IMG/VR virus record: IMGVR_UViG_3300020472_000098
Coordinates: 1 to 32,407 of that record
DNA length: 32,407 bases
Strand: one strand, 5' to 3'
Source: a virus
The first letter of the stretch is position 1. Each line of letters begins with the position of its first letter. The notes beneath the pieces were generated by a model. That model was given only the letters and a program-made list of their open reading frames with translations. It was not told the origin of the DNA and did no database searches. Positions 3,701 through 29,696 of the stretch are shown one piece after another. Position numbers and translations under genes: made by a program.

Positions 3701-3833
3701 AATCACCATCTGGATGAGACATTTTATTATAATATCCTAATATCTCACCTGTGGTCAAACTAACTGTATATTGTGCATCAATACCTTTTTTAGGTCTATT
3801 GGGAACTATAATTTTTTTTGTTTCTTCTGACAT
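744..3833 (-). CDS. Large tail fibre/adhesin-like protein (1029 aa) with PKD-like segment
   Basis: This 1029-residue protein has no signal peptide or membrane segment and is rich in W, Y, N, D and G. A cysteine-rich part covers about residues 410-560. Around residues 640-760 a PKD-like pattern appears (VNWDWKEG, later HTYQNAG followed by beta-strand-like sequence), typical of immunoglobulin-like modules in extracellular and phage fibre proteins. Residues about 783-797 (PVIGGIS), 846-852 (VRYFKKP) and about 950-985 (DTSGNGNKG, IGDYSL) match segments of the 3903-aa protein encoded just upstream, so the two share C-terminal modules. The end is Gly- and Lys-rich. The ATG lies one base after the stop of the giant gene, preceded by AAAGGA, so translation is probably coupled. 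A host-recognition fibre is the likeliest role; the exact position in the virion cannot be told. Confidence 0.8.
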   Translation of the reverse strand: MSEETKKIIVPNRPKKGIDAQYTVSLTTGEILGYYNKMSHPDGDLYSYEIESPVLKRYKEQNAIGEATERVTNILPETIAGMEDWRGTAGASRNVRESGDMIGTLSGDCWPNGCDGKFISKADQYDSHATGTPGSGKGAGGTMWYDGDIRLQFKKNEAGREHTMKVMFDGGGKGPMCKVEGDDGNLWNSGVQPCYSVMHVCFDQWDSLTKIGDEYIGSFDYNITEGSLGPAYQGNHDSPQHSMKGFTMYQDGFKLPAFDFHTGPYGNCEQMGWDSCGHFAQREYLGEILMSDGWKRRYFWFRLTYGSTIEMPDRNSLGESGYYVFTDHHSPTNDTVRAGGDREWMYAGNGPTLCFNIISLNPMTMYLDNFYLTKVNDNTTGKKEYNTHAKLITDFMFDKDPVYGCPKQTWTQGYSETINTIIEEAEGVPGTEAQCIAQNGTWTHEIIYDGTAYRCVDDDSEYEDADFPSSTDCVNADNCLGSSGIPGYVGACENSNMGSGCDSCDLVFQAGAGSPYYEDQYYCVDYTMDEAVYEQTTVADNYVTRKPMYECEEYYDYFGFQWRPITHISTKTGDDTMDLQRYYDDIQDKNKASAPAEVTLQFSISQAGDNFNIIKYPDRYQYPLREWQEARDETSPKNFIKYLQFSAFVVNWDWKEGEPDTINEIKSIVPTGLSELTEVQKKQNIWNPVQFINGHNYQIMNHDATKAADMVESAQVPHQLNHTYQNAGLKIIKYIVYSYFEHPQNPDFVKLVDWRLGTARLNLNIHNTYEQEFQDIGGWDYKYIPWPYTSPVIGGISDESQYIESLNNVIKKNEFSQYEYLDKELATLASYNDELGKFFGQADIEQVRYFKKPFDLNHMLLIDDRVSEQGLHPSTPEYIGNTNLFSETNIYGYWDGTNNQFPEETSIGQIFINKDEVKVPYYTQENPEWTSDNINKSRLKDECLIEINGYLLTGTTIRDTSGNGNKGILIGDYSLTKQDEGIPVSKDSSIDIPDANAFNESNKDEQKYGGTEGSGVSYGGGGKKPKKCG

Positions 3834-6800: not shown

Positions 6801-9800
6801 TACCCCAATCACTCCAATCATACATTTGTTCTGGTGGTTCGTTTTCCTGTCTACCCTTATATAATCTTACTCCAACTTTGTTTAGATTACAATAACCTAC
6901 ATTCCAATCACCATAAGAATCTGATGTATTACTATGCCATCCACGAGGAGTACCAGAATTAACATTTACATTATTCATAAATCTTTCATTCCATTCATTA
7001 GTTGTTGGTGGTTTATTTCCCCAATCGTAACTATAATCTTGTCCAGATACTAATTCCTCGTGATACATACTATCACATTTATATTTAGCCCAATAAGAAA
7101 ATTTATATTGTGTACCTTTTGGTGTTTGCATATACATAGAAGAACCTCTTTTATGTGTTCCGTGCCACTGCTCACCATTAAGACCCCAACCAGGAGTACC
7201 ATCCATTATATCTTCAGTACCATCACCATTACTATCATACCAATTATTATTATTTGGTGTAGATTGTCCTTCTCCACAAATACCATAATCAAAATTAGCC
7301 ATACTCTCCATTTGTCTTGCCCATCCGTGACTATCATCAGTACTCGGTATAGCACATCCACCTTGTATATTTTTAACTAATCTAATAACAGATGTATCCC
7401 CATAAGGATCATTTTTATCTTCGGGCCAAGGAATTTTTGGATTATTTATACCTACAAACACACTCCCACTATTGTTTACTGTCCAACCACTTGGATAAGC
7501 ATCCGATTTAATTCCAGTTGGAAAACCATCGTGTGGATCTCTGTTACCTATTCCACGCCATATATTTTTAGGTACACTCTTACCAAATGTTTTATCTTCA
7601 TTACTTACATTTCCTTCATCATCTATTATATCATAATCAACTTCTACTATACCAAAATTTTGACCAACTACTTCTTCCCAATCTAAATCTTCATCGTTCA
7701 TTTCATTATAATAAAAACAACCTAATTGAGGTCTAAAATCTCTATCATTTCCTTCTAAAAATGATTTAGAGTTAGTTGGATCTTTTACATAAAAGTCGTC
7801 TTCGGACACTTCTAATTTAGCTGACTCAATGGTTGATGATGGAATATTTATTCCTTGATATGGATCAAAATTTTCTTCAATAGTTTGTTGAGGATATATA
7901 GGGTCTTCAACATCTATATAAACTCTTGTTAATATAGGGTCTGGACACCATTGAGAGCTATAAACACATAAAGAAGCTGGATAATCCACAGGAGTTGAAT
8001 CTGGATCACCAGGTACTTCTTCTATATGTTTACCCCAACCTCTTACAGTAACCATATATCGGCCACCTTTTTCAAATCTAAAATTCATTCCGGTATTAAT
8101 TAAATAATCAACAGCATTACCTGTATAATAATGATATTGTCCGTGTTGTTTAGTAGTACCATCATATAAAACACCTGGATTATTATATTCTGTTTCAGTA
8201 TATTGATTTTCAATATAATCACCACCCTGACTTACTGGATCATCGTAATCTTCTATGGTAACTTCATACCAAATGTTAGCACCATTTCTACTATTATCTG
8301 GGTCAAAATATAAATCCATACCTGTACCATTTCCAGGCATATACCCTCCATAATTTTTATTTTGTCTTGGTGACTCATCGTGATAAACAAATTCAATAGA
8401 CTGAACTACTAAATCACCTTTCTTTGGCATATATCCAGGATTTGGAATTAATGAGTCTTCTGAATCATTAAATAAAAACGCGGTGGCGTAATCAGTAGTA
8501 CCAACAGCACAATTGAAATTTGTTTGTGCGGAGTTAGTATCAGAACAATTCATTGGTACATTCCAAGCATTCATTCCATCCATACTCCATTCATCATTTG
8601 AATTTGGTAAATCACCATATTCATATAAATCATTAACCTCTGTTTGATGGCTGTCAGGTTGGAAAGCAAAAACTGGATAATTTGCACCTTTACCCCATAG
8701 ATTTTCATTAATATTAGAATACCAAAAATTATACATATTATTTCTTGCTGGAATTTCTCTTACCCAATTTTGACTACCGTGGCCAAATCCAGAATAACTC
8801 ATATTTGATGTTAACCACTTCATTTTTTGCGCGTCGGTACTTGTCCAACCACTTTCATTGTATGATAATGCGTTAGTACCATAAGTAGCCCTACAATCAT
8901 GCCATCCTTGTAATTTTGCATTTAAAAGAAAATTTTCACTTGAATAACCATTACTATAATCTAAATCCCAATTGGTTGGCCAATATGCTTCCACCTTCTG
9001 ATCTATAGCTGATTGACAAGGATGCATCCTTCCAACTGTTCTATGATCAGCAGCGTTACCTAAATTCGTTGGATTGTTAGACATCCAAAAATCTCTCAAC
9101 CTATAATGTTCCCAAGAAAGAACTAATGATTTAACTGGTCTGTCTCTATAAGCTGTACAACAACTCCAATGATTTTGATAATTTGTATAATCTTGTCCTG
9201 TACCATTATGTTCACCTAAAAGTAATGGTCCTCCTTGAAAAACTTGTCCTTTAGGTCTTTTAAATCCTTCTTCACCAGGTAATTCAACTAAATAAGGATC
9301 ATTACCAGTAGTACTTGAATAAGTGTTGGCACAATCAGCTAAATTACCTCCACCTATTTGTCTTGTAGAATCTCCAACACAACCATCAGTACATACAAAA
9401 TGTGGTCCTTGCCAGTTCCATTGAGAGTACATTAACATTGTATCAGCTACACCATTTTGAGTACCCCAATGTATAACACCACTTGGCCACATTGAAAAAT
9501 CATAATGTTGTTGACTCGCACCGTAATCCCAATTGTTTTGAGTGTCTGATACCCACCATACAGGTTTTTTCCTATTGAAAGCATCAAGATTAAAACCACT
9601 ATTCACCATCCAATCATAGACAGTGCTATTATTACTTCCTCCAGCTTTATTACCTAAATAATTATTTGCTAAATCATTTGGATCATCTAAATCAGGATAA
9701 AAGTTTGGATATAATTCCGCTATTCCATTATTTTTGTATCCCATCTCACCCCAATCAACAGCCGAACCTGGTTGTATGGGGATTGCTTTTGGCATTGGCC

Positions 9801-12800
9801 AAGGCCGCCAAGAATTGTTGTTATCAGATTCACCATCCCATTCCATTTCAATATTTTCTAATGCATAATTATCACCAACATAAATGTGTTGTCCTAATTG
9901 ATAAGGGCCTATCCATCTATTTACTCCTGTATTAATTGAAGTAACTGTTGGACTTAATTGTCCACAAGTACAAGGATTTGGAACAGCGTCACCATCTATT
10001 TGTCCATTAGCTTCAGCTTTACCACAAGTAAAAAATCTTGGTCCTCTAGCGAATCCATCTATTACAGGATTTAAACCTTCCCAATCAGGACTAATTTCAA
10101 TATGTGCTGAATAATAACCTTGTGAGTCTGGATATAATGACCAATCTGACCTTTTATCAAAAAATCTATTTCTACCATTCCCTCTTGGAGCATCTTGATC
10201 TTTCCAATAATCTGGTATGTTGTTATCATTCATCCAATCACCCATTAGATAATTTAAAGATAAATCTTTTGTTCTTATATTTCTAACAGCAATCGCGTCT
10301 CTTAAACCAAAACTTGTATAAACTAATTGATTTCCAACACTATCGTGATAATTACCCTCACCCCAATTTGAATAACCATATCTATGCCACCAAGTTTGAG
10401 GTAAAGCTCCAAACCAATTTGACCAACCTTCTGTAAAGGCGTTTCCGATAGAGAACGCGTCATTTATATGTTCATCAAATAAATAAACTTTCATAAACCC
10501 AGCATTCATAAAGTCACCATAAGTCAAATCGTGGTATTTCATTCTATGACCTGCTTGGTTATTATTAGTTCCTCCAGTTCCTCCTGCAGTTCTTCCTAAT
10601 CCTTCCGTACCTTCATTATTAGGGAACAAACCACTAAAACCTGCGTGGAAATTATCTATACCCATACCTGGTTGAGCCGCTCTTAAATTTCTTAAAAATA
10701 CACCTCTAGCTTTTAATTTAACTACAAGTTTACCGTGTTTTAATTTTCTTTCAATATCATCTGGAAAATCATACATAATTTGATATGTAGAATTACCTTG
10801 TTGTGGCTCATAATCTGTTGTATGGTGATTCAACGACAAATCAAATGTAAAACCAGGTGCTGGATCACCTACTTGAGCTCCTCCAGGAATATCGTATGCA
10901 TAAAATGCTGTTCCTCTATTTGTCCAAGGTCCTCCGTGAGCTCCATTAGGACAAGATGCGTTAGTATCATATCTTATATCACCCCATATACTTGAACCAA
11001 AACCTGTATTCATTGAACATTCATAAACTGGAACTGTTCCAGCTACATGCGTTTTAAATGCATAAAATAATGGTGCGTCATCTGAAGATGTGTTATCATC
11101 ATTATCAAATGTAGATGTTTTACCTGATTGTGGCCATATATCATACATATCTGAACCATTACCATTATTAACACCTGCTTCTGCTGGAGAAACTCCCTTA
11201 TTCGTGCTGAAAGTTAATCGTGTAGCTGAATATTTAGAATTTCTATACGCGTATACTGGTTGAGCTGTTGCACCACCACCTGCAGCTTCAGGTAAAACAT
11301 AAAATTTAGCAGATTTATAAAAATAATATGAATTTAAAAATGATGACAAATTATCACAATGAAAATTAGTACCATATGTATTAGCTTCTGTTTCATCAGC
11401 ATCTATACATACTACATGCTCCCATAAGCTAGTTCTTTCATATTCATTAACTGGAACTGTTGGAATAAAACTCCATTCATTAGTATCACCTTCAACAAAA
11501 GTTGGAGCGAATACTGAAGGAGTTCCAATCAACCCATTTTCTGTCCAATACTGATGTCCCCATTGGTCATTACCTGGATTTAATTTATTATATCTAAACA
11601 TAGGATAACCCATAGCATATTCATTTGTTGTTAGTATTGATGGTACTTTTCCACCAAATTTAGTTTTAACTTCAAATGGATTACCACTATGATAAGGTTC
11701 AGCGTAACTGACATCAGAATTATAACCCCAATCAACAAGTCTAACAAATGGATATTCTTCACCATTACTATCATCGTGAACAGGCATATGCCACCAGTTA
11801 TCTGAAACCATTTCTATACTTGTTTTCCAATCTGAATCATCCCAATAATCATAATTAAGTATGTATGATACATTTGATTCTATATTATCACCAGGGGTAA
11901 AATTAACTCTATCATCTGCACCCGCTATTGATATATTATAAATGTCTTCTGTTAAAGAAAATGATGAAATTGGTGTTATGATTATAGCAGCTCCTGGTTG
12001 AGTTACATATTCAGTACACCATTGTATCTCTTCTACACCAAGATGTATTTCTGCTGTATTAGTAGGGTTATATTCAGGTGGTGTTGGAATACCATTTGCT
12101 GGATCTCCTGGATTCATACATCCTTTTTGATAAAAATCCGCACAAGATCCTTCTGTATGAACTGAATATACACCTGTTGTATTATCCAACATACCATACA
12201 TATTACATCTTCTTGAACCTTCTAACATTTCATCATAACAAACACTATCATAAAACCATTCATCACCAGCACCAGCTGAAAGAGCATCTACAAAATTATC
12301 TAAAAATTTTGGACAACTTTCATCACCATCAGCACAAACACAATAATTATCAATTCTATCACACCAAGTATTATCAATACAACCACAACTTATTTGAGCT
12401 GTCTCTTGTGCTAATGCTCCGTTAGGAGTCGCGTTTATAATACATTCTGGACACCAAGAAGGAGGTACATTATCATATGTATATAATGGCTCATCAATAC
12501 AATTTCTTGTTACAGCCAAATCAGGAAGATATTCATAAATAAGTGAGGTAGCTTGATCAAATATATTTGTCGTTTCAAATCTAAATACATTAATATCAGT
12601 TGATTGTAATTCTACACAAGCAGCTGATGGATTTGTTCCATTAATTGAAAATATACTACCACAATCATATGGAGTTCTAGCACAATTATCATTCACACAA
12701 AGGTTTGAACTTACATTATATTGTTTTCCCATTTTTATTTTAGTTGTATATGATGGAACAGGAGTAATATTACCAAGTGTAAATTCTCCAGTTTCATTAT

Positions 12801-15546
12801 ATGGACTATTAGCCAACTTTTGACCTGTTAGTGGAGTGCCAATTCTATCGTTAGCGTGGTCTGTTGTTCCAAGATGTGACTCTCCAATGAGAGTTTTACA
12901 AAAACCATATGGATTTATATTAAAATCAGGTGCTTGTGTATAATCAACACAATAACCACAATTGTCCATATATTTTGTTCCAAGAACATCACCAGCACAA
13001 TCTCTACAAGATTCATTCCATAACTCGTGTCCAATTAATATACATACACCACAACTATCTACATCATACCATTCTTCTTCTGGTGTAAGTGCTCTACATT
13101 GATTATGACAAGTAACACAAGGTCCACCAGGTGTCATATCATTTTCTGGACAAGGACAAGAATCATCTTCATCATTTGGATTTTCCCAACAAGTATTTAT
13201 CCAAAGAGGTGTACCATACTCATTTAAAAGAGTTAAGTCTCCACCCTCACTATTAGCATCTGGACAATAATCTGTTGAAGTTTGTTGATTACCCCATCCA
13301 TCACCATCTACATCTTGACAATATGCTATTGGATATATTTCTGGATAATTACAAGTACATCCTCTATCATAAGTACAACAACTATTATCACCATTACATT
13401 GAATAGTCGCTTCTGAATCATAATTACAAGCTGTATTATCTGTACAACCTGGTATAAATTCACCAGCTCCTCCCTCAAAATCTACTACTATACACGCTCC
13501 TAATGTATTGTAATGCATTAATGAATGGCCATATTCATCAACAGCTAACATTTTTTGATTAGCTTTTTGTGAATCCCAATACGCGTTTTGTCGTGATCCA
13601 TCATTATATCCTGGTGGTCTCGTATCAACAAAAGTAGCTGAATTAATACATATACCACTTTGATATGTTCCAGGATCTCCACCAACATATCTTCCTGTAA
13701 ACCACATTAATGGTTCAAATTCTCCGTGTCGATCTTTATTAGGTGGTAGTAGAGGAACACCAGTTGGATTCCAATGGAAATGTAAAACAATTTGACTTGT
13801 ACCATAAGTTTCATAATACCAGGGATGATCTTGATCAAAATATACCCAATCATCAGTTACATAAGTACCAGATGATTCCCAGGGATCTACTGCGTAGGAA
13901 TCATAACCACTTGTCATTGTCATTCCTGCATTAGCCCAAGTACTTCCATTCTCCATCCTTAATTTATCAGCAGGGATTGGGTGCATTTGTGGATTTCCAC
14001 CATTTTGAATATGATTTGTACAATAATTACTATAATAAGATTTTACTTGATCTGGTATATAATAAGCGCTCATTCCTTGAGAGAAAGCTTCACAAAAATT
14101 AGGGTCGTCAAATTGAGCTCCCGCTATATTCGTCCATTCATTCGCATTCCACGCGGCAACTCCATTTCTTCCTTGATTTGGCTCATAGTTATTAGCTAAA
14201 TTACCAACAAGAGATGTTATCTGTTGGTCAGCTTGTCCACCTTCCATCAGTTGTTGAACTTCTGGAGTAGTAATATCAATATTTGTTATGTGAAATTGAT
14301 AGCCTAAAATAGGTGAATTTGATCTATACCAAATTATAAATTGATTCCACATATCTCCATTTTCTTCCCACCATTCTCCAGCCTGCATTATATATAATTC
14401 TACTTTTGGTTCTTGTCCTATTTTAGCTATATGCCAGTTATTCTTATTCCAACTATAACAACTTCCCCACTCATTACCCTGCCATATTCCACAAGTATCG
14501 TGTGCTTGATAAACATTAAAAATTTCACTATAATAACGATTCTGAAAAGCTGTATCAGTTGCGTTTGAAGAATTAGAATCAAATCTGCTTTCCATATTAT
14601 TATAGTCACTCTCCCACATATCTGATAATGTTTGACCAGTATTTTTATCAATCCAATAGGCTTTATTATCTACAAAACAACATCCAAAAGAATTTCTCCA
14701 ACAACCATCATCACTTGAAAATTGACCATTATCACTACAACCAAGAGCTTGTCCACATTGATTAGCGTACTGACTACTGACATCACCTTGTGGCCATCCT
14801 AAATTATGAATGTAGTGAGGTTCACCAACCGGAGCGTCAGGGGTAAATCCATAGGAGAAGGGCATTCCATAATAATTACAAGTATGGGGCATTCCTCTGA
14901 CATCGGGAATATCATCTCCACCACCAGAACCACCACCTTGATTACCGCCGGTGCCTCCACCGCCTTGGTTACCGCCGATTGGAGGACTACCACCTTGAAA
15001 GTAAGGTTCTGAACCATTTATTCCACCTTCTTGGATTCCTCCTGGAAACCAATCTCCTTGTCCAAACACCTCATCCATTCCATTACTTTCGGCTTGGTAC
15101 GCCCAACACTCACCAGGTGTTGTATCAGTATGACACATAGAACAATCTACAGCTCCTGCGAACTGACACGGTTGTGGACAATCAGATGTAGTTGTACACG
15201 CTAATCCCATTGGCCACATATGATTGGCTTGATTGGCGGGAATAACGGTTTCTCCAGAATTATCTATTATTGGATTTCCTTCTTCATCTATCGATGTATC
15301 AATACACGCTTCTTCTGGACAAGAACACTCCCATTGAGCTTCATAACCATTAAAATCTGGACAAAGAGTAACACTTGGAAATAAAGTTTCATATAAATTA
15401 GCACCAGTAGTTCCAACAGCTCCTTCTACACAAGAAGTAGCTTCTGTAAAAATCGGATTGTTGTTATCATCACAAGACAAAAAATATGTTTGATGTCCTG
15501 CTCCTTGTGAACAACATTCAGGTAAATTATTATTACTAATTGCCAT
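3835..15546 (-). CDS. Giant modular tail fibre/adhesin (3903 aa), cysteine-rich
   Basis: A single uninterrupted 11.7-kb frame takes up over a third of the window. The N-terminal third is very cysteine-rich. A Gly-rich linker lies at about residues 180-213. Around residue 700 is GCTDNTACNYD, near 745 DVDGDGWGN (like calcium-binding loops), and near 849-866 DCAGD followed by DNCGYC; these motifs recur in marine Bacteroidota secreted proteins and marine phage fibres. The middle 2000 residues are rich in W, N, Y and G with no family I recognise. A PKD-like module sits near 3020-3100 (NWGDD at about 3054, HEYKKSGIYEV). PVVGGIS (about 3140), VRYYKKP (about 3254) and a terminal module (about 3843-3880) are shared with the 1029-aa protein. 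GGGA upstream of the ATG is the likely ribosome binding site. A very long host-binding fibre is most likely; no catalytic motif was seen. Confidence 0.85.
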   Translation of the reverse strand: MAISNNNLPECCSQGAGHQTYFLSCDDNNNPIFTEATSCVEGAVGTTGANLYETLFPSVTLCPDFNGYEAQWECSCPEEACIDTSIDEEGNPIIDNSGETVIPANQANHMWPMGLACTTTSDCPQPCQFAGAVDCSMCHTDTTPGECWAYQAESNGMDEVFGQGDWFPGGIQEGGINGSEPYFQGGSPPIGGNQGGGGTGGNQGGGSGGGDDIPDVRGMPHTCNYYGMPFSYGFTPDAPVGEPHYIHNLGWPQGDVSSQYANQCGQALGCSDNGQFSSDDGCWRNSFGCCFVDNKAYWIDKNTGQTLSDMWESDYNNMESRFDSNSSNATDTAFQNRYYSEIFNVYQAHDTCGIWQGNEWGSCYSWNKNNWHIAKIGQEPKVELYIMQAGEWWEENGDMWNQFIIWYRSNSPILGYQFHITNIDITTPEVQQLMEGGQADQQITSLVGNLANNYEPNQGRNGVAAWNANEWTNIAGAQFDDPNFCEAFSQGMSAYYIPDQVKSYYSNYCTNHIQNGGNPQMHPIPADKLRMENGSTWANAGMTMTSGYDSYAVDPWESSGTYVTDDWVYFDQDHPWYYETYGTSQIVLHFHWNPTGVPLLPPNKDRHGEFEPLMWFTGRYVGGDPGTYQSGICINSATFVDTRPPGYNDGSRQNAYWDSQKANQKMLAVDEYGHSLMHYNTLGACIVVDFEGGAGEFIPGCTDNTACNYDSEATIQCNGDNSCCTYDRGCTCNYPEIYPIAYCQDVDGDGWGNQQTSTDYCPDANSEGGDLTLLNEYGTPLWINTCWENPNDEDDSCPCPENDMTPGGPCVTCHNQCRALTPEEEWYDVDSCGVCILIGHELWNESCRDCAGDVLGTKYMDNCGYCVDYTQAPDFNINPYGFCKTLIGESHLGTTDHANDRIGTPLTGQKLANSPYNETGEFTLGNITPVPSYTTKIKMGKQYNVSSNLCVNDNCARTPYDCGSIFSINGTNPSAACVELQSTDINVFRFETTNIFDQATSLIYEYLPDLAVTRNCIDEPLYTYDNVPPSWCPECIINATPNGALAQETAQISCGCIDNTWCDRIDNYCVCADGDESCPKFLDNFVDALSAGAGDEWFYDSVCYDEMLEGSRRCNMYGMLDNTTGVYSVHTEGSCADFYQKGCMNPGDPANGIPTPPEYNPTNTAEIHLGVEEIQWCTEYVTQPGAAIIITPISSFSLTEDIYNISIAGADDRVNFTPGDNIESNVSYILNYDYWDDSDWKTSIEMVSDNWWHMPVHDDSNGEEYPFVRLVDWGYNSDVSYAEPYHSGNPFEVKTKFGGKVPSILTTNEYAMGYPMFRYNKLNPGNDQWGHQYWTENGLIGTPSVFAPTFVEGDTNEWSFIPTVPVNEYERTSLWEHVVCIDADETEANTYGTNFHCDNLSSFLNSYYFYKSAKFYVLPEAAGGGATAQPVYAYRNSKYSATRLTFSTNKGVSPAEAGVNNGNGSDMYDIWPQSGKTSTFDNDDNTSSDDAPLFYAFKTHVAGTVPVYECSMNTGFGSSIWGDIRYDTNASCPNGAHGGPWTNRGTAFYAYDIPGGAQVGDPAPGFTFDLSLNHHTTDYEPQQGNSTYQIMYDFPDDIERKLKHGKLVVKLKARGVFLRNLRAAQPGMGIDNFHAGFSGLFPNNEGTEGLGRTAGGTGGTNNNQAGHRMKYHDLTYGDFMNAGFMKVYLFDEHINDAFSIGNAFTEGWSNWFGALPQTWWHRYGYSNWGEGNYHDSVGNQLVYTSFGLRDAIAVRNIRTKDLSLNYLMGDWMNDNNIPDYWKDQDAPRGNGRNRFFDKRSDWSLYPDSQGYYSAHIEISPDWEGLNPVIDGFARGPRFFTCGKAEANGQIDGDAVPNPCTCGQLSPTVTSINTGVNRWIGPYQLGQHIYVGDNYALENIEMEWDGESDNNNSWRPWPMPKAIPIQPGSAVDWGEMGYKNNGIAELYPNFYPDLDDPNDLANNYLGNKAGGSNNSTVYDWMVNSGFNLDAFNRKKPVWWVSDTQNNWDYGASQQHYDFSMWPSGVIHWGTQNGVADTMLMYSQWNWQGPHFVCTDGCVGDSTRQIGGGNLADCANTYSSTTGNDPYLVELPGEEGFKRPKGQVFQGGPLLLGEHNGTGQDYTNYQNHWSCCTAYRDRPVKSLVLSWEHYRLRDFWMSNNPTNLGNAADHRTVGRMHPCQSAIDQKVEAYWPTNWDLDYSNGYSSENFLLNAKLQGWHDCRATYGTNALSYNESGWTSTDAQKMKWLTSNMSYSGFGHGSQNWVREIPARNNMYNFWYSNINENLWGKGANYPVFAFQPDSHQTEVNDLYEYGDLPNSNDEWSMDGMNAWNVPMNCSDTNSAQTNFNCAVGTTDYATAFLFNDSEDSLIPNPGYMPKKGDLVVQSIEFVYHDESPRQNKNYGGYMPGNGTGMDLYFDPDNSRNGANIWYEVTIEDYDDPVSQGGDYIENQYTETEYNNPGVLYDGTTKQHGQYHYYTGNAVDYLINTGMNFRFEKGGRYMVTVRGWGKHIEEVPGDPDSTPVDYPASLCVYSSQWCPDPILTRVYIDVEDPIYPQQTIEENFDPYQGINIPSSTIESAKLEVSEDDFYVKDPTNSKSFLEGNDRDFRPQLGCFYYNEMNDEDLDWEEVVGQNFGIVEVDYDIIDDEGNVSNEDKTFGKSVPKNIWRGIGNRDPHDGFPTGIKSDAYPSGWTVNNSGSVFVGINNPKIPWPEDKNDPYGDTSVIRLVKNIQGGCAIPSTDDSHGWARQMESMANFDYGICGEGQSTPNNNNWYDSNGDGTEDIMDGTPGWGLNGEQWHGTHKRGSSMYMQTPKGTQYKFSYWAKYKCDSMYHEELVSGQDYSYDWGNKPPTTNEWNERFMNNVNVNSGTPRGWHSNTSDSYGDWNVGYCNLNKVGVRLYKGRQENEPPEQMYDWSDWGSRGSKSSEQMPDDGEWHYYETFVTQNSDGEVYPSLSWSYGIGMMELQLYNIKIEVEHNFSPDVDVRAIQSLDGEQSILTEYYDENVDTAKYFENTAPVEVQFFFYARQGYSHTSKTESLFEERERIEFDDLNLYVAFINWGDDTQEYFDKPVKLSNDEIFKHEYKKSGIYEVTGYMFNHIRDLGVSDFKKFLVRINITEDPNNEHEFSALGGKKHTYIPYKDTVPVVGGISRESVYQKVVERQSGFTRVFDETGNEINYSYLPLEFRYYSDKLKSEMALVQLDETKLEFTEVLPIWLQNYYDVPVDEDGNLTITDDDTPIFYGYDYIFGELGDHIGEIDLGQVRYYKKPKQMWEMLGFTDSFNKSENAHAWFWDSNYNGQVYDGAPLTMMLKNNEWNVAFNATETNGGISLDSNQNLSSLQSDLNMEDFPIDETGRIRGFVHLEIEVVSNYLFPTYLEITLGNNMGTDFYGSGLTCSLQSPPYVNDGNGWVTGENNINIVKVPLHMCEYSIGYDGGSAVVQSDQEYTAGYNFARIEVYRTTYQSMNEELEENQQLEWFEFINEGQEWWKINKFTFQADPDYGDITEDNITHPGNPGHYRYWKNIIPKNYGFGQKQGIEKFYTGIYNPALQWSMGNVYSCSDCSTMDIGHIFLIKFNGLKEGGAPVSEVFQDLINRNWDLLPKDETGRYIEKITGIGWYQDQQAWLPLWTRESGTLEDGKATKLYVTDNEDAPIVTDAVIENDLTEYEPYTPNIFSNNHGDNNQPSDSNLYRVILKYNPQSGEGRYPITTNIRFDYPYRVWTTYSENPDLLNPGNWISIHPEIQVYTDINDIDLPLASQLAAWIRGIDDNYYYKIDTDASQQWVGTNDYNWNYYYPITPKLNRARDFKLTKYGWGTDYNIIKPFGNPARMWDKDDMYAPISNKIIDEKDLIVDLDFGQIAGNKITDIAGMGNVGVKIADYKIEIDEETKSPKSDEYISDADVSVEKGPY

Positions 15547-17321: not shown

Positions 17322-18440
17322 TTACCTCTTTATTTTAAATTCAAAATCATTATCAAAAATTTGTTCCTGTCCATCATCATATTTTATTTTATAAATTATC
17401 TTATATATCCTATCAGGATAAAAACCATTTAACCATTGAATAAAATAATTTGATTTAGAATCACACGATAACTTTGTATAACTTGTATTATCTATATCTT
17501 CAAATGGAACTATTGTTTCTCCTGTTGCGATGTCTATTATTGAATAACTACCACTACCTTCTGGTATATAAGAACCACTAGCAGTTTGAACTGATGTTGA
17601 AAAAGTTTTTTGGATATATCTTTTTCGAGCCGCTACTCTAAACTTAATTTTATCGTTTTCTTTGTAGCTATCTCTTAAACCAATCATATACAAATAATTA
17701 TCAGCTAATCCACTTGAAGTAATTTGTAATAAACTACCAGTATTAGAACCAGTAGCTGGTTTATGATCATCCCATTTAACTTCTAATACAGGTGGATATA
17801 TCGTATGTGTATTTCTTGAAAAGAATTTTAACTTACCTGTTGTAGATGAATCTGTTTCTCGACTTCCACTAAATCTTAAAAGTATTCCAGAATTAGTAAC
17901 TCCTCCTGATAACCAAGCGTTAACAATTGGTGTAATATTCATATTGATATCAGGTGATTCATCTGAAAAAGATTGTGATGAATATATAGTTGAACTTACT
18001 TGTCCTCCAGGCGTTGTCCAATTTGTTTCTGAATTACCCATTTGATTATTTCTATTATCCCAACTTACACCATTTGTTGTAATAGGACGATGAATAACTT
18101 TACCACCACCTTCATCCCAATCTTCCGTTAATAATCTAGCATCTATTTTGTATGTAGACGATAACGCTTCATTACCTTCAGCTTCAAACATTCTTAAATA
18201 AAATTTTGGATTTGTAATTTTACCATCTACTATTGATTGTGATAATGAATTACCAGTTTCGTTCAGATTAAATTGTACAAGACCCCTTGTTTGATAATCA
18301 AATGAATCATTGTAAAATTCTTTTTTAATTTCAATTATTTGATCTTTACCAAAGTTAGCGTCTTTATAATCTGTTCCATCTATATGACTTGAACCACTTG
18401 AAATCCACGATGTTTTAGTTGCGAAATATCTTGTATGCAT
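17322..18440 (-). CDS. DNRLRE/CBM96-like tail structural protein
   Basis: The protein has 372 residues. Residues about 20-225 follow the DNRLRE/CBM96-like beta-sandwich pattern: RGLVQFNLNE near the start, LLTEDWDEGG and GVSWDNR in the middle, then NITPIVNAWLSGG, NSGILLRFSG, FFSRNT and PPVLEVKWDD. In bacteria such domains bind polysaccharide on secreted proteins; in phages they occur in tail and baseplate components. The remaining 150 residues are beta-rich and unassigned. Its ATG overlaps the gp6 stop as TAATG, with AGGAG upstream, so it is translationally coupled to gp6. Position right after gp6 suggests the periphery of the baseplate, where T4 has gp7-gp10, but I see no similarity to those proteins. 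Confidence 0.75.
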   Translation of the reverse strand: MHTRYFATKTSWISSGSSHIDGTDYKDANFGKDQIIEIKKEFYNDSFDYQTRGLVQFNLNETGNSLSQSIVDGKITNPKFYLRMFEAEGNEALSSTYKIDARLLTEDWDEGGGKVIHRPITTNGVSWDNRNNQMGNSETNWTTPGGQVSSTIYSSQSFSDESPDINMNITPIVNAWLSGGVTNSGILLRFSGSRETDSSTTGKLKFFSRNTHTIYPPVLEVKWDDHKPATGSNTGSLLQITSSGLADNYLYMIGLRDSYKENDKIKFRVAARKRYIQKTFSTSVQTASGSYIPEGSGSYSIIDIATGETIVPFEDIDNTSYTKLSCDSKSNYFIQWLNGFYPDRIYKIIYKIKYDDGQEQIFDNDFEFKIKR

Positions 18441-20638
18441 TAGATTACTACTCCTCTCACATTCTTGTTAGGATACCTTAACTCAAATACAGATGGTGTA
18501 ACTGATGGTAAAATTACTCCATCTCCAGCTATGGCATCAGGACCATAAAATTGTCTAAAATCATATTTCCAATTATATTTACCAGAATTTACTGCTTGAG
18601 ATGAAGTACCTTGACTAAAGTCCCACAATAAATCTGTTCCTGCTATATATTGATTTGTATGAACTAAATCTTGAAAATCTTGAGTTAATTCTACAAAATT
18701 AACTTGTCTAACACCATCTACATCCATTAATATATATTCCAAATCTGATGTGTATATTGTTTGGTGAAATTGCATTGAATCAACATCAAAATATTCTGCT
18801 ATTTTATCAATACAATCTAATTTTACTTGTGCTTTATTCGCTGTCTTATGAGCCACTACTTCAAAAGCTACACCAAAATTTACAACCTTTCCATCATCAA
18901 GTAATATTTCATCCGTCATTAATCTATATTCATTTAGATAAGCCTTTAAATTTTGAAGTAATATACTTGTTGGATGAACTAATCTTTTAGCGAAATCATA
19001 AGATAAACAACTAATTCTAATAGTTGATAACGCGTTTGTTGTTACATCTTCTCCTGCGGTAGTTTGACCAACGATTCCTGTTTGTACTCTAAAATCATCC
19101 CAACTTTGATAAAAATTCATTAACTGGGTTAACTTTTCATTCAATTCTGGTTGAACACTTCCAACAGTTATTGAATGATTTACATCACCTAACAAATTAT
19201 TAAAATCAAATGAATCAATATTACCAGATGCATCTAAATCTAATCCAGCTAAAACATTACTAACCGCCGCGTTAGTTGTTAGTCTCTGTACAAAAACTTT
19301 TGCTATCTTTCCATACTTTGTTGGTAAGTTTAAAGCTCTACTTTCATAATCTTTTTTATTTACACAACGATTTTGAGTAGCAAAAAATCCTTTAGCTCTG
19401 TATCTAATATCCTCTATTGATTCAGGACCCGCACCGCCACGAAATGGATTTATATTTATAGCTGTTGGTGATTGATTATTACCAGTCAAAAGTCTATCTG
19501 GTGTACCAATTACTCTATTGATAGAATTGGCTTCTACATTTGATGTTATTCCACCACCGACTCTATAATTTATAGTTAAAGTTGTATTAGATGGAGCTTC
19601 TCCTAATGTTGAAGTATCATCACCAGCAAATGGATCTATATAACTTAATAAATTTTGAGTTTGACCAGGGATTGTAATTCCAACTTGATCAGTGGCTAAA
19701 AATTCTGTTCCTGTTATTTGGCCGTTTTTTAATATACCATTTCCAAATATTAAAGATGTAGTATTGTCATCATTTGTTCTTACAACAAATCGTTTAGATG
19801 TCTTTCTAAATTCCAAAGAAAATGGTACTGCTACTTGAGTATGTGTTGAACCACCCCAGGTGGTAGAATCTTCCATAGCACTTGTTCGATTACCATCTCT
19901 ATAAAATGTATCGTGTGGTATTCTGTCTTGAGCTAAATATTCAACTTCATACCAATTGTTTCCATTTGAATCTTTAACAGATACAATATCAATAACATTT
20001 TCATCAGAAATATTTATTTCAGTAAATTTTTGTGGATTACTAATCCTAACAGATTTGACTTTATTTTTAGCTGATATGGCTGGAACATCTCTTTTGAGTG
20101 TATATTCTGTAGCTACACCATTTGCATCAGTATTTGTTACTTCTGGTTCAGGTAACCCAGAACCACTCATTGTAAAATCACATATATCTAATGTTTGAAA
20201 TGTAAGTGATTGATCACTTGAAGCACCTAACTCTAATCCTTTATTAATAATTTGCGCTTGTCCCCAATCTGGTTTTATATTATTTATATCACTAACATCT
20301 ACATCTACTGTTTGAGATATTCTTACCAATCCGTGTGATGGCGTAGTAGCTCGTACTTTATAACCAAGAGACGAAGCTAAATTAATAATATTTCTTCTTT
20401 CCTCTGTTAAAGGTAACATCATTTCTTTATATTGTTGATCTATATAAAATGACAATACATCACCAACATACGCGGCCATTTCAATTAACATCATACCAGG
20501 AGATGTTTCGTTAAAATCTCTATATGTATTAGGAAAATAAGTTCTAGCGTAATTTATTAACGCGTTTTTTAAACTTGAAAAATCCTTATTCAGATAATTT
20601 ATATTTGATGTTTTAAAATCTTGTTCCTTATATGGCAT
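18440..20638 (-). CDS. gp6: Baseplate wedge protein gp6-like (baseplate J family)
   Basis: The protein has 732 residues; T4 gp6 has about 660. The N-terminal stretch is diagnostic: INYLNKDFSSLKNALINYAR, then ETSPGMMLIEMAAYVGDVLS, IDQQYKEMMLPLTEERRN and IINLASSLGYKVRATTPS. Later parts have baseplate J-like features (EFLATDQVGITIPGQ, GGAGPESIEDIRYRAKGFF, CVNKKDYESRAL). In T4, gp6 dimers form the ring that joins wedges and drives the sheath-contraction switch. An unusual DLDASGNIDSFD segment at about residues 464-475 looks like an EF-hand or dockerin calcium loop. GGGAG upstream of the ATG is a good ribosome binding site. It follows gp25, the usual neighbour in T4-like marine phages. Confidence 0.93.
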   Translation of the reverse strand: MPYKEQDFKTSNINYLNKDFSSLKNALINYARTYFPNTYRDFNETSPGMMLIEMAAYVGDVLSFYIDQQYKEMMLPLTEERRNIINLASSLGYKVRATTPSHGLVRISQTVDVDVSDINNIKPDWGQAQIINKGLELGASSDQSLTFQTLDICDFTMSGSGLPEPEVTNTDANGVATEYTLKRDVPAISAKNKVKSVRISNPQKFTEINISDENVIDIVSVKDSNGNNWYEVEYLAQDRIPHDTFYRDGNRTSAMEDSTTWGGSTHTQVAVPFSLEFRKTSKRFVVRTNDDNTTSLIFGNGILKNGQITGTEFLATDQVGITIPGQTQNLLSYIDPFAGDDTSTLGEAPSNTTLTINYRVGGGITSNVEANSINRVIGTPDRLLTGNNQSPTAININPFRGGAGPESIEDIRYRAKGFFATQNRCVNKKDYESRALNLPTKYGKIAKVFVQRLTTNAAVSNVLAGLDLDASGNIDSFDFNNLLGDVNHSITVGSVQPELNEKLTQLMNFYQSWDDFRVQTGIVGQTTAGEDVTTNALSTIRISCLSYDFAKRLVHPTSILLQNLKAYLNEYRLMTDEILLDDGKVVNFGVAFEVVAHKTANKAQVKLDCIDKIAEYFDVDSMQFHQTIYTSDLEYILMDVDGVRQVNFVELTQDFQDLVHTNQYIAGTDLLWDFSQGTSSQAVNSGKYNWKYDFRQFYGPDAIAGDGVILPSVTPSVFELRYPNKNVRGVVI

Positions 20639-24750: not shown

Positions 24751-25491
24751 CTAATTTGCAAACAACTCATCAAATTTATTTTTGAGGTTGTCTACTTGTT
24801 TTTGTTCTTGTTTTGTCTTTGGTACACTTGTATTTACTATTTCTTCATCAGCGTGTTGCCAATCTTCATACTCAATACGAGTTGTAGTCATATCAGCTTG
24901 ATGAAGAATATGTTGCATATTAGACTTTAATTTCTTTTCAGGAGCATATGATTTAAGATATTGAATATTTCCATCATCATACATTCCATCTGTTAATTTA
25001 ATTCCAATAAATTCATTCTGTGTCATTGGTATTCCATATTGACCTAAAATCCAAATACCTCTATCAGGTGGTGTCATAAATTTTAAATCAGGATTATTTG
25101 TATAAATCTTTCCTTGATTCTTTCTATGCCACTCTGATGGATTAGGTATATAATGGTCCTGTTCCAAATCACCAACCTTACCCAAGTCGTGATGTAAAGC
25201 TGCGAAGATTAATTCTTCAACAGTATAATCATCAACATAAGCTCCGTTGTCTTTCCATATTTTATAGAACGCTAAAGAATATTTAACGATGTTTAAAATA
25301 TGTTGAACATAACCACCTGGTGTACAAAGATGAAAATGTTCTTGACCACTAGCTGGTGCGAACATCATTCTATCCTTGAAGTCATTATACATTGATAGAA
25401 GTTTTTCTTTTCGCTCTCCATCAAATGTATTTTCAATAAGTTGTATTAACTTATCCCAATTTTCTTGTATCTGTTCTGGTTTCAATTTCAT
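24751..25491 (-). CDS. HD-domain phosphohydrolase
   Basis: The start is set at 25491 (MKLKPEQIQENW), where GGAG lies upstream and the ATG overlaps the queC stop as TAATG; a longer reading from 25554 would run far into queC. The 246-residue protein has the metal ligands of an HD hydrolase: H64 in GYVQHIL, H101-D102 in ALHHDLGKVGD, and a candidate last Asp at D200 in HQADMTT. HD proteins cleave phosphoester bonds in nucleotides; many phage members act on dNTPs, nucleotides or cyclic nucleotide signals. Because it is locked into the deazaguanine operon, roles in guanine-nucleotide supply or in destroying a host signal are possible. Substrate cannot be read from the sequence. Confidence 0.88.
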   Translation of the reverse strand: MKLKPEQIQENWDKLIQLIENTFDGERKEKLLSMYNDFKDRMMFAPASGQEHFHLCTPGGYVQHILNIVKYSLAFYKIWKDNGAYVDDYTVEELIFAALHHDLGKVGDLEQDHYIPNPSEWHRKNQGKIYTNNPDLKFMTPPDRGIWILGQYGIPMTQNEFIGIKLTDGMYDDGNIQYLKSYAPEKKLKSNMQHILHQADMTTTRIEYEDWQHADEEIVNTSVPKTKQEQKQVDNLKNKFDELFAN

Positions 25492-26279
25492 TATTGAGCT
25501 CCTTGTTGATATTCTTTTTCTAATTGTAAAGCACCCTCTAAAACATTTTCCCAAGTATCAACATACTCGACAGGGTCCTTCCTACCTAATTGATGGAAAG
25601 CTAATATTCTTTCTACATCAGCTCCTGACTTACCACTTGATCTTCCTTGTTCATCAGGGTTATATGATGTATTTGTATTAGCAAAAATTACATTAAAATC
25701 AACTCCATCAAGTTTATTAATTGATTCTTCAGCGTCTTTAAGTATTGTGTATTTATCTCCTTCTAAATACGGAAGATAAAAACTTACTCTGTCACTATCC
25801 CAATTACCGATTTGAAAAGCTTTTTCAATAGCGTCATAAAATTCTGGACGACAATCTGGATAAATAGCGTGATCACCTGAATGAACTCCTAATCCAATAT
25901 TTATTAATTCATTATGTTTATTAGCTAACGATAACGCGTATCCATAAATTACAGACGCGAATATTGCATTCCTATTTGGAACTACGGTAGCTTTCATATT
26001 CTCTTGTTCATAGTGTCCTTCTGGTACTTCTACATCATCAGTTGTTAAAGCCGAATCAAATACTGACATAGCACCTGATATATCTGAAACCATTTGATGT
26101 ACTTTATATCCTTTTGATTTTAGATATTCTACATTTGAATTAGCTCTTGATAATTCAACTCTATGTTTTTGTCCATAATAAAAGGATAAACAATATACTT
26201 CGTATCCTTTCGCTAATAGGTGAACTAACAACCCTGTTGAGTCCATTCCACCTGATAATGATATTACTGCTTTTTTCAT
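25491..26279 (-). CDS. queC: 7-cyano-7-deazaguanine (preQ0) synthase QueC, zinc cysteines absent
   Basis: QueC converts carboxy-deazaguanine to preQ0 with ATP and ammonia. The PP-loop SLSGGMDST (residues 7-15), the FYYGQKHRVE segment and VVPNRNAIF (99-107) are all present, and the length (262) is slightly above the usual 220-230. The C-terminal zinc site is changed: the normal CYN...CGxCxxC pattern reads TSYNPDEQGRSSGKSGADV, so the four cysteines are replaced by S205, S215, S218 and D221. The following ERILAFHQLGRKDPVEY still aligns with the family, so this is not a frameshift. AGGAG precedes the ATG, eight bases after dpdA. It may still make preQ0 through a metal-free fold, or may make a different product such as the amide. 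Confidence 0.93.
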   Translation of the reverse strand: MKKAVISLSGGMDSTGLLVHLLAKGYEVYCLSFYYGQKHRVELSRANSNVEYLKSKGYKVHQMVSDISGAMSVFDSALTTDDVEVPEGHYEQENMKATVVPNRNAIFASVIYGYALSLANKHNELINIGLGVHSGDHAIYPDCRPEFYDAIEKAFQIGNWDSDRVSFYLPYLEGDKYTILKDAEESINKLDGVDFNVIFANTNTSYNPDEQGRSSGKSGADVERILAFHQLGRKDPVEYVDTWENVLEGALQLEKEYQQGAQ

Positions 26280-26287
26280 ATTCTCTC

Positions 26288-27472
26288 CTAAAAAAATGTA
26301 TTTGTTATTTTTTTCACTTCTTGATTCGGATTACTTAATTTCAGATATAAAGGTTCGTATTTTTTATAAACTTCCATAGGTGAATCCGACTTAACCATTT
26401 CGTCAATTGATTTTAATAATTTAAACATATCTACATTTACTATCTGTTCTACTAAACCATCGTGACTATTCATTATTTCTTTTATTCTATCTATACATTC
26501 AACAAGAACATATAAATTATGAATTGACATACTTGTAAAAGCTCCCCTTGTCCAATCATAAATTGTTTGATAAGAGATACAATCTTTTATAAGACTATCG
26601 AATTTTGTTACTTGTGGTAAAGGTAATTCATTATTGAATATATCTTTTTTCTTTGGAAAGTTAACACTTTCAATTGTCATTTTTTTCAAAGAATAATTCA
26701 TATAATAACCACCAAACACAACAGCATAGTCTGGTGATGAACTATCAGTTGTCACTCTCATATTACTACCAACACTATGTAACGATTTTTGTAATTGTTG
26801 TAACATAAAAAAATCTGATACTTTAGCTGTACCAAGTAAATGTAACCATTTATTGTTTTGTTTTAAATGTTCCTTACCATCTAATAAAATCGCGATAGCG
26901 TATAATGTACTACTTAACTTTGAACCTTGAACACCACCAATTGACCAACCTTCAAATTGAAAATCTTTAACTGCGTTATACCAATCTAATGTTCTATTAT
27001 CAAATCCAGCTTGTAATATATTTATAAAGTCAGCTGAACCTTCTTGTCTATGTTTAGCGAAGTACTCAAAATTTTCAGTTGAAAGTTTTAGACACTCATC
27101 ATAATCTTTAAATACCTTACCGCCAGGTGGGATATCTAAATTCATAGCGATATCACAATTGTCTTCTAACCATCTTAAAATAGTTTCTCTTAATTCAGGT
27201 TTCCAAGTTAAGTTACCAGTTTTAATTTGAAATCCACCACTATCACCAACTACTAATACATCATCTCCTAATCCAAAATCTTTACGAGCATTTTTATTTC
27301 TGAAGTTAGCTCCTGCTGATAATAAAAAATAAGGATATCTTAAATCACCCATATCAGAAGAATAGAATCTACAAGGTGTTCCATTTTCAAATTTAAAATT
27401 TTGTTTTAATTCAGGAGCTACTCCTGCTGAAGAGAAACTTGGAAAATATATAAAATCTTTAAAAGAACTCAT
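26288..27472 (-). CDS. dpdA: DpdA-like DNA guanine transglycosylase (TGT family)
   Basis: The start is placed at 27472 (MSSFKDFIYFPSF), eight bases after GGAG, giving 394 residues; it overlaps the upstream gene by 14 bases. TGT-fold motifs are clear: VGDSGGFQI with D77, MNLDIPP with D113, SIGGVQGS (substrate pocket GG), WLHLLGTAK, and TTDSSSP with D243 at the place of the nucleophile. In tRNA TGT a CxCxxC...H site binds zinc; here the matching region reads CISYQT then SIHNL, so only C298 and H318 remain. Because the phage encodes preQ0 synthesis with this enzyme but no QueF or QueA, exchange of guanine in DNA for a 7-deazaguanine, as known for DpdA proteins, is the likeliest role. A tRNA-acting TGT is the alternative. 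Confidence 0.85.
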   Translation of the reverse strand: MSSFKDFIYFPSFSSAGVAPELKQNFKFENGTPCRFYSSDMGDLRYPYFLLSAGANFRNKNARKDFGLGDDVLVVGDSGGFQIKTGNLTWKPELRETILRWLEDNCDIAMNLDIPPGGKVFKDYDECLKLSTENFEYFAKHRQEGSADFINILQAGFDNRTLDWYNAVKDFQFEGWSIGGVQGSKLSSTLYAIAILLDGKEHLKQNNKWLHLLGTAKVSDFFMLQQLQKSLHSVGSNMRVTTDSSSPDYAVVFGGYYMNYSLKKMTIESVNFPKKKDIFNNELPLPQVTKFDSLIKDCISYQTIYDWTRGAFTSMSIHNLYVLVECIDRIKEIMNSHDGLVEQIVNVDMFKLLKSIDEMVKSDSPMEVYKKYEPLYLKLSNPNQEVKKITNTFF

Positions 27473-27884
27473 GCTTTGTCTCCATATTATTTTTAAAATA
27501 TTGTAATTGTTCTCCAATACCTTTTCCCTGTAAAGGAACTGAACAATTGTTTTTTAATAATGGTAATAGATATTCTCTATAATTATTTCCTACATAAAAA
27601 TATAATTCATCATCATTATTAATTTTATTTTTCATTTGTTCATATACCATATTGGACCATTTAATTTTTTCATCTTTTGAAAAATCATTTAATGTCATTT
27701 CATAATTTGTTATTTCATCATTCAAATCTAATAAACCATATTTAGCTGAAAGAATATATATCTTCTTATATTTAGAGGAACAATATCCAAAAGACTTTCT
27801 AAAAAAATCTGATGTATATAAATCCTTGGCTTTGTATTTACCAATTCTTTTTTCCTTAACACAAGATATAAATGCTACATCCAT
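27459..27884 (-). CDS. DUF6884-like protein
   Basis: The 141 residues show the pattern of the DUF6884 type: ISCVKEK near the start, AKDLYTSDFFRK (19-30), IYILSAKYGLLDL (42-54) and TNYEMTLNDF. These proteins are often near 7-deazaguanine DNA-modification genes in phages. The motif order resembles a nucleoside- or base-binding Rossmann-like fold, but the activity is not known to me. The ATG overlaps the folE stop as TAATG and lacks its own Shine-Dalgarno sequence, so it depends on folE translation; its 3' end overlaps dpdA by 14 bases. That tight link supports a role with DpdA, such as target selection or base modification, but this is inference. Confidence 0.75.
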   Translation of the reverse strand: MDVAFISCVKEKRIGKYKAKDLYTSDFFRKSFGYCSSKYKKIYILSAKYGLLDLNDEITNYEMTLNDFSKDEKIKWSNMVYEQMKNKINNDDELYFYVGNNYREYLLPLLKNNCSVPLQGKGIGEQLQYFKNNMETKHEFF

Positions 27885-28513
27885 TATAATGTTTTTATAA
27901 AGTTATAAAACTCTGTTCGAGCTTGATTATCATTATCCATAAATACTCCACTTAATTTAGCTGTCTTCATTGTAGCATCGTGTTTAACACCACGAACACA
28001 AGCACACATATGATTGGCTTCCATAACTACACCAACACCAAGATTACCTTCACATAAACTATTAATATGATCGTGAATCTGCATTGTTAGGTTCTCTTGT
28101 ACTTGTGGGCGTCTAGCGAAAAATTCTACCGTTCTATTTAATTTACTTAAACCAATAATTTTACTTGTAGTTGTTGGAATATAAGCAACATGCGCGACAC
28201 CAATAAAAGGCAGATGATGATGAGAACAAAAAGAATTTACTTTTATATTTCCTTGAAATACAATACCATCATAACCATCAACATTATCAAATGTTGTTAT
28301 AGTAGGTGGTTTCGTATAACAACCTTCAGCTAAATCATTAACAAATGATTTCGCTACTCTCATCGGTGTGTCTGAACTATTTGGGTCGTTTCTCCAATCA
28401 AACCCAAGAGCATCCATATACTTACCATAATGTTTAGCTGCTTCTACAATCATTTTTTGTTTTTCTTCTTCTGTTAAAGGTTTATTACCATTTGCATATT
28501 TTAATTTACTCAT
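27884..28513 (-). CDS. folE: GTP cyclohydrolase I
   Basis: FolE opens the guanine ring of GTP to give 7,8-dihydroneopterin triphosphate, the entry step to preQ0. The 209 residues contain the whole GTP cyclohydrolase I signature: SFCSHHHLPF (C96 and H99 as zinc ligands), SKIIGLSKLNR, RRPQVQENLTMQI and HMCACVRGVKHDATMKT (C170 as third zinc ligand). Unlike its pathway partners, all metal ligands are intact. The ATG follows the queE stop directly, with GAGGAG inside the end of queE, and the stop overlaps the next start (TAATG). A phage copy would raise flux beyond host folate demand. Confidence 0.97.
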   Translation of the reverse strand: MSKLKYANGNKPLTEEEKQKMIVEAAKHYGKYMDALGFDWRNDPNSSDTPMRVAKSFVNDLAEGCYTKPPTITTFDNVDGYDGIVFQGNIKVNSFCSHHHLPFIGVAHVAYIPTTTSKIIGLSKLNRTVEFFARRPQVQENLTMQIHDHINSLCEGNLGVGVVMEANHMCACVRGVKHDATMKTAKLSGVFMDNDNQARTEFYNFIKTL

Positions 28514-29263
28514 TTATACTCCTCGTTTATCACCATAAGCGATAATATGTAATCGTTCCGCGTAATTATAACCAAGTTCAGTACATAATTCCATTAACCA
28601 AACTCTTCTTTTTTTTAGTTCTTCTTCTACTAACCCTTCGGGCATTAACCAAACTTTATCATTTGGTATATTTAATATTTTCTGTAAATCTTTAACTTCA
28701 CTTAATTCTTTTAGATTTGATATAACAGGTTTCAACTGATAGTCAGGATGATTATCAATCAATTGTTTCATAGCATCATAGTTACATCTCCACTTCTCGT
28801 GTTTCTTCTTATCAGCCTCTGTAACTTCACGATTAGCGAATGGCATCCAAGTTCCAGGACGAGGTGTTGAGTTTGATAGTTTAGGTGATAAAGAAATTAA
28901 ATCACCTTCCGTTTGTACAAACTCTGAACCTTCTGTTTCAATTGTAATTGTGTGTTCATATGATTTACCAATTTTACATAACTCTTGTAATAATTTTTTA
29001 TATAAAGTTGGACCACCACCTGTAATCATTGTATGTTTGATTTGTGGATTGTCTTCATATACCTTAACAATATCATTCAAAGTAAACTTACCAGCTTCTG
29101 GTTTCCAAGAGGCGTAAGGTGTGTCACAAAATGAATTTGAGAATTGACATCTCAATCTACAACCTGTAACACGAATTAAGATATGAGGCATTCCCATATA
29201 TTTACCTTCACCTTGTAAACAAGTATAAGTTTCTCCTAATGGTTGATTCTTATTATAGTCCAT
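28514..29263 (-). CDS. queE: 7-carboxy-7-deazaguanine synthase QueE (radical SAM), altered motifs
   Basis: QueE rearranges carboxytetrahydropterin to carboxy-deazaguanine with a [4Fe-4S] cluster and SAM. The start at 29263 (MDYNKNQPLG) puts the typical short leader before ETYTCLQGEG; in-frame ATGs at 29302 and 29290 are alternatives, and none has a strong ribosome binding site. The protein has about 249 residues. HILIRVTGCRLRC and CDTPYASW frame the cluster, but the cysteines C35, C39 and C46 are spaced CX3CX6C instead of CX3CX2C. The SAM-contacting GGEP motif reads TGGGP (81-85). SPKLSNSTP and the C-terminal VWLMPEGL region fit the family. It overlaps queD by 11 bases and abuts folE, so the assignment is supported by context as well. 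Confidence 0.93.
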   Translation of the reverse strand: MDYNKNQPLGETYTCLQGEGKYMGMPHILIRVTGCRLRCQFSNSFCDTPYASWKPEAGKFTLNDIVKVYEDNPQIKHTMITGGGPTLYKKLLQELCKIGKSYEHTITIETEGSEFVQTEGDLISLSPKLSNSTPRPGTWMPFANREVTEADKKKHEKWRCNYDAMKQLIDNHPDYQLKPVISNLKELSEVKDLQKILNIPNDKVWLMPEGLVEEELKKRRVWLMELCTELGYNYAERLHIIAYGDKRGV

Positions 29264-29696
29264 AATCAGCCCAATTGTTTTCGTGTTCATATACTCGTAC
29301 ATTATCTATCCAAACTCTACCATTTGTTTTTTCTGTTATCATAGGACTTACATTATCAAAAACCCATTTACAAGAATCTTCGATACCAGGACCATATCCT
29401 TCGGGCATTACATTTAAGTTAACACCACCCAATTTGTGTAGTCCTTCAAATAATCCAAGTAAGGGATCATCGTGAGCTAAAAGTAATCTATGGTCCCATT
29501 GTTCTTCTAACCATTTCTTAACATCTTTTAAATCACCGAAATCCATAACCCAACCTTTTTCATCTCGTTCTTCACAAGCAAATGTAAATTCTACATATCT
29601 ACCATATCCGTGAACAAATGAACAATGTCCATCATCTTTATATTGACGATGTCCTGTTGATATTGGTCCTATTCTTTTTGACGATTTAAATTTCAT
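29253..29696 (-). CDS. queD: 6-carboxytetrahydropterin synthase QueD (PTPS family), variant zinc site
   Basis: QueD turns dihydroneopterin triphosphate into 6-carboxy-tetrahydropterin. The 147 residues show the PTPS layout: zinc ligand H16 in STGHRQY, catalytic C25 in GHCSF, the VHGYGR segment, WVMDFGDLKDVKKWLEEQWD, catalytic D68-H69 in WDHRLLL and E137 near the end. The second zinc segment is normally HGH; here it is HGY, with H29 kept and Y31 in place of the third histidine. It is the first gene of the operon, about 50 bases after a sigma70-like promoter, with AGGAG upstream at slightly long spacing, and overlaps queE by 11 bases. Confidence 0.9.
   Translation of the reverse strand: MKFKSSKRIGPISTGHRQYKDDGHCSFVHGYGRYVEFTFACEERDEKGWVMDFGDLKDVKKWLEEQWDHRLLLAHDDPLLGLFEGLHKLGGVNLNVMPEGYGPGIEDSCKWVFDNVSPMITEKTNGRVWIDNVRVYEHENNWADYGL

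Follow-up and report, generated by a model that had tools for sequence, protein, structure and literature searches.

The window analysed here is a 32-kb viral record (32,407 nt) from a marine phage, probably a fragment. Its minus strand carries a queE gene (28514..29263, (-)) for a CDG-synthase-like radical SAM protein of 249 amino acids. The longest open reading frame at this place is 28514-29302(-), with 262 amino acids counted from the first ATG; the ATG at 29263, Met14 of the long frame, is the likely start, because three close homologues begin MIDYNK at the same place. The long frame reads, in order, LGETYTCLQGEGKYMGMPHILIRVTGCRLRCQFSNSFCDTPYASWKPEAGKF, TMITGGGPTLY, ITIETEGSEF, SLSPKLSNS and, at its end, GDKRGV. 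As initially annotated, the gene overlaps queD (29253..29696, (-)), which covers its start by 11 nt, and abuts folE, whose start at 28513 directly follows the queE stop at 28514.

On the same strand, queD (PTPS family; PF01242, 3.3e-24), queE and folE (GTP cyclohydrolase I, 27884..28513, (-); PF01227, 2.3e-46) are joined by genes for a DUF6884 protein (27459..27884, (-); PF21818, 3.3e-41), a DpdA-like guanine transglycosylase (26288..27517, (-); PF01702, 6.5e-06, just under the cut-off) and QueC (25491..26279, (-); PF06508, 4.7e-41), giving queE the folE, queD and queC neighbours by which a QueE can be recognised. The DUF6884 gene lies between dpdA and folE, and its product weakly resembles the peroxide-stress protein YaaA. 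Viral contigs of the GGGP clade described below keep homologues of queD, queE, folE and dpdA around the gene, with dpdA near queE in most of them, and many also have queC and the gene at 24751. The latter ORF (24751-25554) adjoins queC, has a weak phosphohydrolase PHROG match and is found beside dpdA in most of these contigs. In the published scheme FolE, QueD, QueE and QueC lead to preQ0, which DpdA puts into DNA, and folE, queD and queE of phage 9g complement E. coli mutants (PMC6884629). The part of the window that was searched yielded neither a QueF nor an amidotransferase. The straightforward expectation is therefore dPreQ0, and from the gene content we infer a dPreQ0-type modification of the phage DNA.

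The neighbouring QueD is itself a variant, with HGY replacing the HGH zinc motif; it retains the catalytic Cys, Asp-His and Glu and carries a His immediately before the Cys. Among six QueD loci including that of the window, those of flavobacterial phages and Fastidiosibacteraceae also have the first zinc His replaced by Phe (FRQW), and six Fastidiosibacteraceae genomes encode no PTPS-family protein besides this variant. From these residues a rearranged metal site looks likely. Elsewhere in the window, ORFs of 3903 aa (3835-15546) and 1029 aa (744-3833; no PHROG match) neighbour baseplate-like genes at 18440-20638, and the protein at 30284-31426 matches GmrSD_N (DUF262) weakly, along with PHROG families of unknown function.

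The initial annotation had called the protein a convincing QueE, and both profile and structure comparisons agree. Its top NCBIfam matches are all five QueE models, at 42-54 bits against cut-offs of 200-300 (the best scored 54.1 vs 300), and its relatives likewise fall below the curated NCBIfam cut-off. Pfam Radical_SAM is just under its own cut-off (28.4 vs 29.5 bits). PHROG 2076, which is QueE-like, matches at 2.2e-43, and strong sequence matches in the PDB are confined to the QueEs of E. coli, B. subtilis and B. multivorans. A confident AlphaFold (AF2) model, built from 52 window, viral and genome homologues (mean pLDDT 92.4, pTM 0.89), has QueE chains as its top five PDB matches, with B. 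subtilis first (probability 1.00, TM 0.57-0.65 by query). The QGEG motif, the substrate Arg, SPK and the basic C-terminal tail of QueE are all in place: the tail ends GxKRGV (GDKRGV here, GNKRGV in B. subtilis), and the Arg corresponds to R27 of E. coli QueE, whose Ala mutant is dead (PMC11142719). Membership of the queE_Cx14CxxC subfamily (TIGR04508) was rejected on spacing, which is CX3CX6C and not CX14CX2C, and on score (42 vs 240 bits). We consider it very probable that the window protein would function as a QueE.

Two departures from the canonical sequence had been pointed out, and both are present. The cluster motif C-RLR-C-QFSNSF-C (CX3CX6C; 29126..29161, (-)) lies within GCRLRCQFSNSFCDTPY, with its cysteines at 35, 39 and 46 from Met14 (48, 52 and 59 in the long ORF) and a Cys2-Cys3 spacing four residues longer than in CX3CX2C. 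Spacing aside, the three-cysteine radical SAM motif is followed by CD[TS] as in other QueEs, in GCRLRCQFSNSFCDT; the cysteines are invariant across 52 aligned rows and the motif is conserved in the GGGP clade. The SAM-amino motif GGEP is replaced by GGGP (29009..29020, (-)), here read as TGGGP, at the end of strand beta2, which in the model runs from residue 90 to 95, as far as the first Gly. Since the solved B. subtilis QueE has GGNP, the GGEP Glu does not define the family. Two further features had been missed. At the end of strand beta3 (model strand 118-123) the protein has ETEG (28928..28939, (-)) for the usual ETNG, ETSG or ETAG, a change that co-varies with the first; the codon of its Glu, the proposed relocated acid, is 28931-28933 (-). 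After SPKLSNS comes an extra segment of ~20 residues (28805..28867, (-), extent approximate), a third mark of the family: the distance to the conserved Lys is 43-46 residues in ETEG proteins vs 13-39 elsewhere. Because CX3CX6C and GGGP are both kept in dozens of viral contigs, neither is a sequencing error or a chance event.

Relatives were collected from viral-contig scans, which gave 20 close relatives, and an alignment-based scan, from which 80 of at least 591 candidates were kept; 52 loci from a genome collection, class- and phylum-wide profile searches, phage records and four separately added haloarchaeal plasmid QueEs completed the set. Motifs were read by profile alignment in 207 distinct QueE sequences, and because part of the viral set had been fetched by GG[GS]P or ETEGS patterns, that class is enriched in the counts that follow. 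GGGP occurred in 30 of the 207, invariably with CX3CX6C (30/30) and always on viral contigs, so the combination sought in viral metagenomes recurs and is not a one-off. GG[S/A]P with CX3CX7-8C accounted for 71 (plus one incomplete row), GG[E/D]P for 103, with Cys2-Cys3 spacings of 2, 6, 11, 15, 17, 22, 23 and 34, and GGNP for one; one further row was incomplete at the motif.

These spacings bear on the suggestion that the loop and GGGP are linked traits, which did not hold. Extended Cys2-Cys3 loops occur together with GGEP, in phage phiSM (X6), a Campylobacter phage (X17), haloviruses (X22-23), NCTB and a Vibrio phage (X34) and some bacteria (X11, X15), and conversely B. subtilis QueE combines the Glu-less GGNP with an ordinary CX2C. 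When independent pairs on the tree were compared, loop extension and Glu loss were not associated, and we rejected the idea of the two as one adaptation. Loops of 11 to 34 residues were seen in viral and some bacterial GGEP QueEs at eight loci; we found no earlier description of such repeated expansion.

The residue that does co-vary with GGxP is the one after ET in ETxG. It was Glu in 102/102 GG[G/S/A]P proteins, a few of which read ETES or ENEG with the Glu retained, and Asn, Ser, Ala or Gly in 103/103 GG[E/D]P proteins; the GGNP of B. subtilis pairs with Gln, and the four haloarchaeal QueEs agree with the pairing. Profile-based genome searches, independent of the GG[GS]P and ETEGS patterns, gave the same co-variation. 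In the AF2 model, positions 97 and 124 (long-ORF numbering) lie at the C-terminal ends of the consecutive strands beta2 and beta3, on the same rim. The co-variation traces back to only ~2 evolutionary events, of which one lies on well-supported branches; so small a number does not allow a significance test. For that reason we treat the relocation of the SAM-holding acid from strand 2 to strand 3 as a hypothesis, one to which we give an even chance.

A tree computed with the trait columns removed placed all ETE sequences in one group (SH-aLRT 100), with the GGGP clade as one group inside it (SH-aLRT 79). The closest rows outside the ETE group are QueEs with GGEP and CX3CX2C that came from genomes in the gammaproteobacterial search; planctomycete QueEs come next. 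The proposal of a distinct phage subclass therefore stands in part: GGGP/CX3CX6C is a coherent viral clade, but the wider family (GG[G/S/A]P, CX3CX6-8C) is not confined to phages, since in Fangia, Cysteiniphilum and Facilibium the only QueE on the chromosome belongs to it. Fastidiosibacteraceae QueEs (four loci, Fastidiosibacteraceae/Francisellaceae) fall among the viral rows, and a single clade of viral rows was rejected with a p-AU of 0.016 for a group named only after the tree was seen. Transfer of QueE from phage to Fastidiosibacteraceae is likely on this topology.

Six Fastidiosibacteraceae genomes have no QueE other than the sister form (GG[A/S]P, CX3CX8C, ETE), which lies next to queD, and each genome has one TGT (E about 1e-165) and one QueA (about 1e-128). 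Were the variant QueE dead, these bacteria would be expected to lack queuosine synthesis of their own. Its use as a sole copy in cells supports the view that the ETE family is almost certainly an active QueE, and argues indirectly for activity in the GGGP clade.

We favour, as the reading that is probably correct, a working CDG synthase in a preQ0/DpdA pathway, with the role of the GGEP Glu taken over by the ETEG Glu. The window gene would encode a working 7-carboxy-7-deazaguanine (CDG) synthase, QueE, acting between QueD and QueC in the phage FolE-QueD-QueE-QueC route to preQ0; the phage DpdA would then place preQ0 in phage DNA. Like other QueEs, the enzyme would hold a [4Fe-4S] cluster by its three cysteines, with SAM on the free iron of the cluster, and a 5'-deoxyadenosyl radical would start the ring contraction of 6-carboxytetrahydropterin. 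The Cys2-Cys3 loop, four residues longer, would be a lengthening of the kind that QueEs tolerate. With the GGEP Glu lost to GGGP, the new ETEG Glu on the neighbouring strand may take over its job, holding the methionine amino group of SAM or its surroundings.

It is also possible, though we think it unlikely, that the protein is a functional QueE in which loss of the GGEP Glu is simply tolerated, SAM being held mainly by backbone carbonyls. ETEG would then mark the family for an unconnected reason, such as the binding of metal or substrate, and would have become fixed along the same ancestral branch. The QueE of B. subtilis functions with GGNP (solved structures 5tgs/5th5), and BioB has AAW instead of GGE, so backbone contacts alone can suffice and a replacement acid may not be needed (PMC3715490). 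Only one or two independent events link the GGxP and ETxG sites. However, G, S and A interchange at position 97 within the family, yet no GG[G/S/A]P sequence is without the Glu at the ETxG site, and some GGEP relatives have merely Ala or Gly there. In BlsE, moreover, all GGEP alanine mutants are inactive, the Glu-to-Ala mutant E75A included (PMC3715490), so that activity should suffer if the Glu were lost without compensation.

The low scores, under all of the NCBIfam QueE cut-offs and slightly under that of Pfam Radical_SAM, would fit a radical SAM protein that has degenerated or been repurposed and lacks CDG synthase activity, in a phage that draws on host CDG or preQ0. We regard this as very unlikely, since the whole clade preserves all three cysteines, the QxEG core, the Arg for the substrate, the lysine of SPK and a basic tail at the C-terminus, the operon retains folE, queD and queC, and some genomes with a queuosine pathway have no QueE other than the sister form; on the same grounds of kept motifs, kept operon and sole-copy sister form, we rejected an inactive relic. 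Least probable of all is a product other than CDG, made from an altered substrate or by an altered reaction in an active site shaped by the loop and insert: three linked departures from canonical QueE and a variant QueD partner speak for it, but the genes for QueC and DpdA lie close by, as preQ0 insertion would lead one to expect, and the relatives in cells belong to genomes whose queuosine pathway is ordinary.

Our verdict is an undescribed QueE subfamily of ordinary function; no description of the GG[G/S/A]P/ETEG class was found in the literature searched, which included few subscription papers. Among radical SAM enzymes GGE is a textbook motif, and the main interest of the variant is as a natural test of the GGE glutamate: a Glu-less family that always bears another Glu nearby amounts to a ready-made double-mutant experiment. 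Motif filters and curated QueE models miss this widespread, active-looking class, and phage deazaguanine DNA-modification genes may therefore be under-annotated. The fuller picture, which we give an even chance of being right as a whole, is of an undescribed subfamily in marine and freshwater phages, captured as the housekeeping QueE of Fastidiosibacteraceae, with the SAM-clamping acid moved (GGEP/ETNG to GG[G/S/A]P/ETEG), a stretched cluster loop and the extra segment after SPKLSNS.

Among known systems, the QueEs of Flavobacterium phage immuto and Cellulophaga phages phiST/phi13:1 (42-43% identical over 95%) share with the window the queD-queE-folE neighbourhood, ETEG and the extra segment after SPKLSNS, but have CX3CX7C and GGSP where the window has CX3CX6C and GGGP. 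The sole QueEs of Cysteiniphilum, Fangia and Facilibium (40-45% identical) have ETE, lack the GGEP Glu and lie beside queD; they differ in being cellular, in CX3CX8C and GG[A/S]P, and in belonging to a queuosine-pathway genome. B. subtilis QueE (PDB 5tgs/5th5), the best fold match, has the KRGV tail and no GGEP Glu, but is only about 21% identical, with CX3CX2C and GGNP paired with ETQG. The QueE of Cellulophaga phage phiSM has the CX3CX6C of the window, but with GGEP and ETNG and 31% identity. Burkholderia multivorans QueE (PDB 4njg-4njk) also has an extended cluster loop, in its case a single one (CX14CX2C; PMC4389238), which unlike that of the window lies between Cys1 and Cys2, with GGEP/ETNG kept.
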